Shown here piece after piece: positions 1-53,502 of a stretch of DNA of 53,502 nucleotides. Position 1 is the first letter of the stretch. Every line of letters begins with the position of its first letter. The notes beneath the pieces are model-generated. The model was not told the origin of the DNA. It did not search any database and saw nothing but the letters and a program-made list of their open reading frames with translations. The translations under genes were made by a program, and so were the position numbers. The stretch is taken from NCBI GenBank assembly GCA_018613055.1, contig JAGGQZ010000001.1:264235-317736 (forward strand), in the 5' to 3' direction. Origin of the DNA: Chryseobacterium sp. ISL-80 (lineage in GTDB: Bacteria; Bacillota; Bacilli; Bacillales; Cytobacillaceae).

Positions 1-203
1 AGAGATACCCTTATGAAGGGGGAAGAGCAAGCATAAGGGTACCATTCGCGTCGAGAGATACCCTTATGAAGGGAGAAGTGTGCGGATAAGGGCACCATTC
101 CCAACGAGAGCCTTATGAAGGGGAAAGTGTGCGCAAAAGGGCACCATTCCCCACGAGAGATACCCTTATGAAGCCAAAGAATACGCAAAAGGCCACGAAT
201 CCG
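1..203. repeat. Tandem ~53-bp palindromic repeat array, left window edge (4 copies)
   Basis: Four copies begin at 1 (first base cut off by the window), 53, 106 and 155. Unit length is 53 bp; the third unit is 49 bp because 4 bp (ATAC) are missing near its start. Each unit carries a left arm TACCCTTATG, a purine-rich segment, a right arm CATAAGGGTA and a spacer ending in CGAGAGA. Arms pair inside a unit (6-15 with 32-41) and between units (32-41 with 59-68), both perfect over 10 bp. The fourth copy decays after about 203. The array may extend beyond the window. No coding function is evident. Confidence 0.85.
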
Positions 204-13591: not shown

Positions 13592-13812
13592 TTGGCTTTG
13601 TTACCTTGGTATCAGCAGGGGGGAATGAATGAAGTAGGTATAAGTTCGGACAAAACTTAAGCAACAGCAGGCGGAAATGTTCGAAGTGGGATCGTGTTCG
13701 TACAAAACTTTGGCATCAATAGCGGGAAATGTCTGAAGTAGTGTCATGTTCAGACAAAGCTCTAGCGTCGCTACCCGGAAATATCTGACGTATAGTCGTG
13801 CTCCCAAAAATG
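13592..13812. repeat. Decayed 52-bp tandem repeat array (4-5 copies)
   Basis: Copies begin at 13644 (GTTCGGACAAAACTT), 13696 (GTTCGTACAAAACTT) and 13748 (GTTCAGACAAAGC), exactly 52 bp apart. A half-recognisable copy lies before at 13592 and a remnant after at 13800. Each left arm TTCGGACA-type is matched by a right arm TGTTCGAA, TGTCTGAA or TATCTGAC followed by GTAG/GTGG. Both the phase and the core match the array at the right end of the window. No coding function. Confidence 0.75.
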
Positions 13813-51993: not shown

Positions 51994-52869
51994 TTGAATA
52001 CACGATCAATGATTTTCACCCTTTACGGTGACTATATTACCCACTATGGCAGCAAGATTTGGATTGGCAGTCTGATCAGGCTGCTGAATGAATTTGGACA
52101 TAATGACCAGTCGGTGAGGGCTGCAATTTCACGCATGAATAAGCAGGGATGGGTGCAGGCTGAGAAAATCGGGAACAAAAGCTATTACTCGCTGACACCC
52201 CGCGGCCAGAAAAGGATTGCCGAAGCAGGTAAGCGTATTTTCAAATTGAAGCCAGAAGAATGGGATGGCAAATGGAGAATCCTCATGTATACGATTCCCG
52301 AGGAAATCCGCAACGTCCGTGACGAGCTGCGCAAGGAACTGATCTGGAGCGGCTTCGGTTCGATGTCGAACAGCTTCTGGATCTCGGCCAATAATCTTGA
52401 AAGACAGGTCAAGGATTTGATTGAGAAATACGAAATTGAACAATATGTCGATTTCTTCGTTGCCGAATATAAAGGCCCGCATGAAAACCAGCGCCTGGTG
52501 GAAAAAAGCTGGGACCTTGTTGAAATAAACGCAAAGTACCAACAATTTATCAGTGAATACAGCCAAAAATACATCATCGATAAAAACAAGATTCAAAAAG
52601 GCAGCATGACCGACGCTGAATGCTTCGTTGAACGGACGAAGCTAGTCCATGAATACAGGAAATTCCTCTTCTTCGACCCGGGCCTTCCTGAAGAACTCCT
52701 GCCGGAAAAATGGCTCGGAAGCCATGCAGCAGCTTTGTTCAGTGAATACTACAAGGAACTAGCCGAACCAGCATCCCGCTTCTTTGAATCCGTTTTTAAA
52801 GACGGCAATGAAATCAAGCATAAAGACGTTGACTATAATGTCATGGACCACCCGTATATATTAGAGTAG
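51994..52869 (+). CDS. paaX: Phenylacetate-responsive repressor PaaX
   Basis: PaaX represses paa genes until phenylacetyl-CoA binds. The 291-residue protein has the PaaX winged helix (FTLYGDYITHYGSKIWIGSL, VRAAISRMNKQGWVQAEKIG, KSYYSLTPRGQ), then the central domain (WRILMYTIPEE, RKELIWSGFGSMSNSFWIS), and the C-terminal part FLFFDPGLPEELLPEKWLG. TTG 51994 is the start behind ACAGAGGA. It has its own promoter and terminator and lies last in the cluster. Confidence 0.95.
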   Translation: MNTRSMIFTLYGDYITHYGSKIWIGSLIRLLNEFGHNDQSVRAAISRMNKQGWVQAEKIGNKSYYSLTPRGQKRIAEAGKRIFKLKPEEWDGKWRILMYTIPEEIRNVRDELRKELIWSGFGSMSNSFWISANNLERQVKDLIEKYEIEQYVDFFVAEYKGPHENQRLVEKSWDLVEINAKYQQFISEYSQKYIIDKNKIQKGSMTDAECFVERTKLVHEYRKFLFFDPGLPEELLPEKWLGSHAAALFSEYYKELAEPASRFFESVFKDGNEIKHKDVDYNVMDHPYILE

Positions 52870-52873
52870 CATC

Positions 52874-52910
52874 AAGCCATCCTCGACCATCCTGGATGGC
52901 TTTCTTTTAT
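52874..52910 (+). terminator. Terminator after paaX
   Basis: AAGCCATCC and GGATGGCTT stem over an 11-base loop, then TCTTTTAT. Confidence 0.92.
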
Positions 52911-52936: not shown

Positions 52937-53502
52937 GTTCGGACAGGTTTAGTGGGAGAAGGAGAAAAGCTGTCCGAGGTAGCCCCGGGTTCGGACAGGT
53001 TTAGAGGGAGAACGAGAAAAGCTGTCTGAAGTAGCCCCGAGTTCGGACAGGTTTAGAGGAAGAAGGAGAAAAGCTGTCTGAAGTAGCCCTGAGTTCGGAC
53101 AGCTTTTGGAAGGAAAAGCGAAAAGTTGTCCGAAGTACTCCCAAGTTCGGACAGGTTTAGAGGAAGAAGGAGAAAAGCTGTCCGAAGTAGCCCCAAGTTC
53201 GGACAGGTTTAGAGGAAGAAGGCGAAAAGTTGTCCGAAGTAGCCCCGAGTTCGGACAGGTTTAGGGGAAGAAGGCGAAAAGTTGTCCGAAGTAGACCTGA
53301 GTTCGGACAGCTTTTGGAAGGAAAAGCGAAAAGTTGTCCGAAGTACTCCCAAGTTCGGACAGGTTTAGGGGAAGAAGGAGAAAAGCTGTCCGAAGTAGCC
53401 CCAAGTTCGGACAGGTTTAGAGGAAGAAGGAGAAAAGTTGTCCGAAGTAGCCCCAAGTTCGGACAGGTTTAGAGGAAGCAGGATTAAGCCCATATAATTG
53501 TG
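52937..53502. repeat. 52-bp hairpin tandem repeat array (11 copies, no indels)
   Basis: Copies of GTTCGGACAG start at 52937 and every 52 bp after, to 53457, without one insertion or deletion. Each unit has a left arm TTCGGACAG, a purine-rich middle (GGAAGAAGGAGAAAAG in most) and a right arm CTGTCCGAA, then GTAGCCCC. The arms can pair within a unit (loop about 25) or across units (loop about 11). Units 4 and 8 (53093, 53301) are identical and differ from the rest, pointing to a 208-bp duplication. The last copy decays after about 23 bp. Long open frames through it are repeat artefacts. Confidence 0.92.

Follow-up and report, generated by a model that had tools for sequence, protein, structure and literature searches.

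The window analysed here, a stretch of 53,502 nucleotides, ends in an array of 52-bp repeats whose relatives elsewhere follow the replication fork: in six complete genomes of related bacteria, 125 of 131 array loci among the matches listed lie in the orientation of fork movement. The window array belongs to the constant-size '52 nt' satellites of Bacillus (Subirana & Messeguer 2021, PMC8161180) and is ordinary for its class; the part worth following is the fork orientation. This property looks new, being absent both from the main text of that paper, where 'leading', 'orientation' and 'palindrom' have zero occurrences, and from the literature listings. We suggest that the 52-bp satellites, which lie between genes, are most likely phased sites in the DNA whose direction is tied to the fork.

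The array occupies positions 52938 to 53483 of the plus strand and consists of ten complete units plus one truncated unit, with the unit being TTCGGACAG-N23-CTGTCCGAA-N11. A first-pass annotation, made from the letters of the window, had reported eleven invariant left arms at a 52-bp step without an indel, and a direct count bears this out: the TTCGGACAG arms (n=11) are identical and run from 52938 to 53458 in steps of exactly 52 bp. Right arms number ten; unit 11 is without one, broken off near the contig end, which is also the end of the window (G000:C11:317736). Allowing up to one mismatch, GTTCGGACA is matched 23 times in the window against 8.3 expected, and 23 matches were reached in 0 of 100 shuffles. 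The units carry an imperfect dyad, TT..GACAG-x-TTT ... AAA-x-CTGTC..AA, and the plus strand of the array is the purine-rich sense, which in the complete relatives is the fork-leading sense.

Part of the window array is a duplicated 208-bp block: unit 4 (53094 to 53145, plus strand), with its CTTTTGG interior, is the same as unit 8 (53302 to 53353) in all 52 bases, and the fit to a 208-bp period is 93%. The arm changes in the array are therefore not independent, and we infer that they go back to about three independent events. Eight of the ten units have one G-U pair on the plus strand, and two have none. Unit 1 had been set apart as the only exception to this pattern, but its CTGTCCGAG has an A-to-G change facing T, which makes a G-U pair on the plus strand too. 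That all arm changes in the window array are of the G-U kind is, at about three events, weak evidence of anything.

The 52-nt satellites were described as non-coding tandem repeats of constant 52 nt length and variable sequence, found in about 30% of the Bacillus species studied, with several families per genome and no sequence conservation between species reported (PMC8161180); B. selenatarsenatis, a Mesobacillus, is listed there with 82 tandem repeats. The arrays studied here have these features. The length is constant over at least four repeats, with 11 units in the window and 1161 of 1194 spacings in 110 arrays being exact multiples of 52 (only units with a neighbour at 51-53 or 103-105 bp were kept), and the freedom from indels that had been claimed thus holds for the window array and nearly so elsewhere. 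Several families with different interiors occur in one genome, and short signals are shared within a genome, namely the GACA..TGTC core and the arms, GACA/TGTC being also an anchor of our search. Family 71_52_7 of B. alkalitelluris (PMC8161180, Table 1) is similar to the window unit in its arms, its linker and its AAAGC end. A dyad is frequent among these satellites without being universal: 22 of the 27 consensuses listed in that table, units of other species, were scored, and 11 of them outdid at least 57 of 60 shuffles. What the present analysis adds to the published satellites is the covariation of the arms and the fork polarity.

The genome of the window (4.75 Mb, Mesobacillus-like) holds dozens more arrays. 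It has 179 exact TTCGGACA-N20-34-TGTCCGAA sites and at least 101 similarity matches to the window array, as well as at least 67 matches to a subtype with arms TTTTGACAG..CTGTCAAAA, partly in the same places as the at least 101, and at least 70 matches to a second family, built of 53-bp units whose arms are CCCTTATG..CATAAGGG. A 52-bp period was returned by TRF in 40 of 42 regions around window-array matches and in 15 of 16 around matches to the TTTTGACAG subtype; in the second-family regions the period was 53 bp in 15 of 15. The window itself contains a decayed three-unit array of the same 52-bp family, with a 52-bp step and a different interior (13644 to 13800, plus strand), and a partial array of the second family with units of ~53 bp (1 to 173, plus strand). 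Array matches are found at the ends of contigs C1, C7, C10, C12, C13, C15, C19, C30 and C31 of the same assembly (G000), in addition to the window end; arrays thus probably break the assembly and are under-counted.

The exact pattern was searched in 61 genomes including the window's own, and was found in 19 of the 21 genomes of the genus and in 7 of the 40 outside it, one of which has 83 copies. The other two genomes of the genus gave no match, either to the exact pattern or by array similarity. Within the family, the array was matched at E 1e-6 in 42 of 193 genomes and 7 of 25 genera, with up to three candidates scored per genome, while blastn found no array match in plasmid and phage collections. 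Two other 52-bp arrays with different arms, L284 (G011:2030130) and L296 (G019:642277), lie near second-family arrays; their arms are, in listed order, GGACATTTT.. and CTATCGGACA..TGTCCGATAG.

Upstream of the window array lies a gene for a PaaX family regulator (51994 to 52869, plus strand), in which PF07848, PF20803 and PF08223 score over cut-off; the gene is 97% identical to its counterpart in Bacillus sp. ISL-41 and 96% to that in Mesobacillus subterraneus, with M. selenatarsenatis within 96-97%. Records labelled Pseudomonas, Sporosarcina and Paenibacillus (L104, L106 and L111) carry an upstream gene at 85% identity to the query, as close as Cytobacillus, and this sequence identity suggests that the three may be mislabelled. 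A terminator-like hairpin (52887 to 52899, plus strand) stands between the gene and the array; it is weak alone, with one found against 1.1 expected in shuffles, and by eye one like it can be seen ahead of the arrays in L094 and L095. The stretch that follows the PaaX-type gene was also read in 13 relatives: L093-L096, four in all, have arrays or remnants there with different interiors, and in the other nine no array was seen by eye in up to 1400 bases read.

Consensuses were drawn for 114 arrays, 61 from complete genomes and 53 from the window's own genome, after arrays with fewer than three recognised units had been dropped. The arm covariation check proposed in the first-pass annotation was run on these, and three variable arm pairs covary. 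In 0-based numbering, pair 2-38 is Watson-Crick in 79 of 114 consensuses against 48.7 when shuffled, pair 3-37 in 73 against 39.7 and pair 8-32 in 95 against 76.3, each with 0 of 500 shuffles, which ignore the relatedness of the arrays. Pair 1-39 does not go beyond the shuffles (84 against 79.9, 39 of 500 shuffles), nor do pairs 9-31 and 12-28, and 13-27 pairs less often than when shuffled, all across the 114 consensuses; the five remaining arm pairs barely vary. Arm sets that do not pair also occur, with CA..AA in 8 and AA..AA in 7 of the 114. The inner pair 9-31 is usually a G-G mismatch, in 43 of the 61 complete-genome arrays, and C-C in three; the count is given for the complete genomes alone because the sense of the own-genome arrays was set by purine content, which makes a G-G count over all 114 partly circular. 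Variation per column, in filled rows, is 0.080 in the outer arms, 0.134 in the interior and 0.182 in the linker. The window array had been taken to be constrained as a phased, dyad-bearing structure; the near-fixed 52-bp period, the covarying arms and their lower variation all support this part of the claim, while the argument from RNA pairing, treated below, turned out to be weak.

For the fork orientation, we placed the origin in the six complete relatives by dnaA and the terminus by one dif-like site each, matched to a dif pattern at 2-3 mismatches. Polarity was scored by the strand of the best array match, array loci were grouped by eye from the match listings, and the lengths of G016 and G018 were rounded. 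Among the matches listed, every locus follows the fork in G015 (26 of 26), G009 (28 of 28) and G016 (12 of 12), as do 23 of 24 in G019, 16 of 17 in G018 and 20 of 24 in G011, with the qualification that array loci are not independent across related genomes. Six of the 131 loci among the matches listed oppose the fork, and three of these lie within 104 kb of dif. As a baseline we took the genes of the retrieved stretches, which a simple script predicted at ~74% coding coverage and which were counted once per locus; 455 of the 609 are leading and 154 lagging. The second family follows the fork at 35 of 40 loci among the matches listed, some of these loci matching on both strands, and its polarity barely exceeds the gene baseline (p 0.04).

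The polarity can be traced to the purine content of the strands. The skew was studied in 61 arrays with at least three recognised units, drawn from all the loci among the matches listed in G009 and G015, 9 of the 24 loci of G019 and 3 loci of G011 picked as apparent exceptions. The orientation call gave 56 of the 61 as observed, against 55.9 expected when the interiors and linkers were shuffled; since composition alone reproduces the calls, the polarity is a strand skew and no proof of an ordered motif, and we rejected the latter reading on this control. Read in the fork-leading sense, purine skew is 0.33 in the interiors and 0.25 in the linkers, against 0.06 in near intergenic DNA; of the 61 arrays, 56 have a positive skew in the interior, and in 55 the interior exceeds the flanks. 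If the flanks represent the mutational background, their skew is far too small to explain that of the arrays.

The skew depends little on the neighbouring genes, and follows the fork, not flanking transcription. Its mean is 0.36 both for the 34 arrays that lie between two leading genes and for the 5 that lie between two lagging ones, 0.38 for the 11 between convergent genes and 0.22 for the 8 between divergent genes, and all five arrays between two lagging genes score in the leading orientation, L228 marginally. The eight arrays between divergent genes, out of 61, also answer the question raised in the first-pass annotation of whether copies always sit downstream of genes; they do not. The second family shows a weaker skew, with a mean of 0.11 and positive values in 17 of 20 arrays, and 0 of these 20 lie between two lagging genes. 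The more stable hairpin lies on the fork-leading sense in 51 of the 61 arrays, with three ties.

KOPS, SRS and AIMS are likewise skewed along the chromosome towards dif, and in the arrays the orientation along ori-to-dif, at 125 of 131 loci among the matches listed, is one for which composition skew suffices. For SRS, up to 85% are reported to lie on the leading strand (PMC5357621), and motifs of the KOPS/SRS kind are recognised by an FtsK/SpoIIIE translocase. The arrays differ from all three in being made of 52-bp dyads, while KOPS, SRS and AIMS are scattered 7-8-mers. The 37 kb of array units contain the SRS octamer a single time, and the Chi word AGCGG 29 times in the leading sense and 7 times in the other. 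There is also a likeness to CRISPR, in that a 27-bp palindromic element alternates with 25-bp segments, but a CRISPR assignment was rejected: the 'spacers' are not unique but similar within an array, where interiors are repeated, and a single genome has dozens of arrays.

We consider it improbable that the array is transcribed into plus-strand RNA hairpins, as a small RNA, a sponge or an mRNA tail. This idea came from the first-pass annotation, which had seen arm changes that keep pairing on the plus strand only and had named a lack of strand bias as evidence to the contrary. Changes were counted at paired arm positions in the 102 of 114 arrays with at least five units, and 134 keep a wobble while 126 make A-C; within arrays the plus-strand-only pattern is thus absent, as is the one-sided G-U bias expected of an RNA element, and the lack of strand bias is largely what is seen. 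C-to-T changes number 99 and G-to-A changes 90 at these positions, and the ratio of the two rates is 1.10 in paired arms, compared with 0.99 at other positions; because units were located by the GACA/TGTC anchor, this count understates the rate of variation in the arms. Pooled wobble to A-C ratios (1.06 in arms, 0.78 elsewhere) were rejected as a sign of strand bias and read as base composition, the class-wise ratios being close. Of the varying cells at consensus pairs, 62 still form a Watson-Crick pair, 204 form G-T and 343 some other mispair.

At the level of the array consensuses (n=114), on the purine-rich sense, there are 44 G-T against 27 A-C arm pairs, which favours the RNA idea, though related arrays share this excess and 27 of the 44 G-T are a single pair, 1-39, mostly common to one subtype. 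Single units fold on both strands, and better on the plus strand (units 5 and 4, z -2.4 and -4.1, against -2.0 each on the minus strand), and in B. coagulans 52-nt repeats are reported to be transcribed, on the basis of RNA-seq (PMC8625621). Against transcription, there is no sigma-70-like site inside the window array and a terminator-like hairpin precedes it, no Rfam match was found in the window at gathering score, and the orientation is kept in the five arrays whose neighbours are both read oppositely.

The main rival to a DNA-level role is neutral survivorship that depends on orientation, in which the repeats arise and turn over by replication slippage and survive best when the purine-rich strand serves as the lagging-strand template; polarity would then be a matter of stability, not of function. 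We regard this as possible, if somewhat doubtful. The turnover at the PaaX-type locus, with arrays or remnants in 4 of 13 relatives and none by eye in 9, is in line with it, as are the block duplication in the window array and the fact that composition explains the orientation call; however, a near-fixed 52-bp step and covarying arms are not expected of a decaying repeat, and the stabler hairpin on the fork-leading sense (51 of 61) falls on the lagging-strand template, where hairpins would favour deletion.

The polarity could instead be set at insertion, if array DNA spread as single strands into lagging-strand gaps; Y1 transposases are such fork-oriented single-strand inserters. We see only a slight chance of this, for while the common fork orientation across the chromosome and the turnover at one locus would fit, no Y1 transposase match was found in G006 (110 copies) or G015 (154 copies), and no enzyme was identified. 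The same search largely contradicts mobile repeats of the REPIN/RAYT type, which we think very unlikely. REPINs and BIMEs share with the 52-bp arrays inverted conserved arms, a variable interior and an intergenic, clustered location, and the GTAG in many linkers recalls the REP tetranucleotide; but the arrays have a near-fixed tandem period, those of the TTTTGACAG type (L069, L086) are without GTAG, and the Y1/RAYT transposase partner, for which Y1_Tnp found nothing in the two high-copy genomes, is represented in the window's genome by a single partial match (profile positions 28-121 of 121).

We tentatively favor reading the array as a fork-oriented, helically phased set of dyad sites that acts at the DNA level, its function being predicted from sequence features. 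Each unit would be a pair of half-sites for a DNA-binding protein, and the 52-bp step, at about five helical turns, would bring all sites onto one face of the helix. The strand asymmetry might then let an array be read one way only along each chromosome arm, as is the case for KOPS and SRS motifs, possibly in the service of nucleoid organisation or segregation. Judging from the block duplication, arrays probably grow and homogenise by slippage or unequal exchange. A bolder and rather unlikely extension is that the phased dyad sites form a chromosome-wide, direction-marked address system, in which a predicted protein would read fork direction on both replichores and arms and interiors could change freely provided that the period, the pairing and the strand asymmetry are kept.

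In the literature the 52-nt satellites stand as a puzzle for which two roles have been proposed, sites for nucleoid proteins or small RNAs (PMC8161180). An orientation set by replication and not by the adjacent genes, together with arm covariation and no clear RNA-strand signal, favors a role at the DNA level for these satellites.
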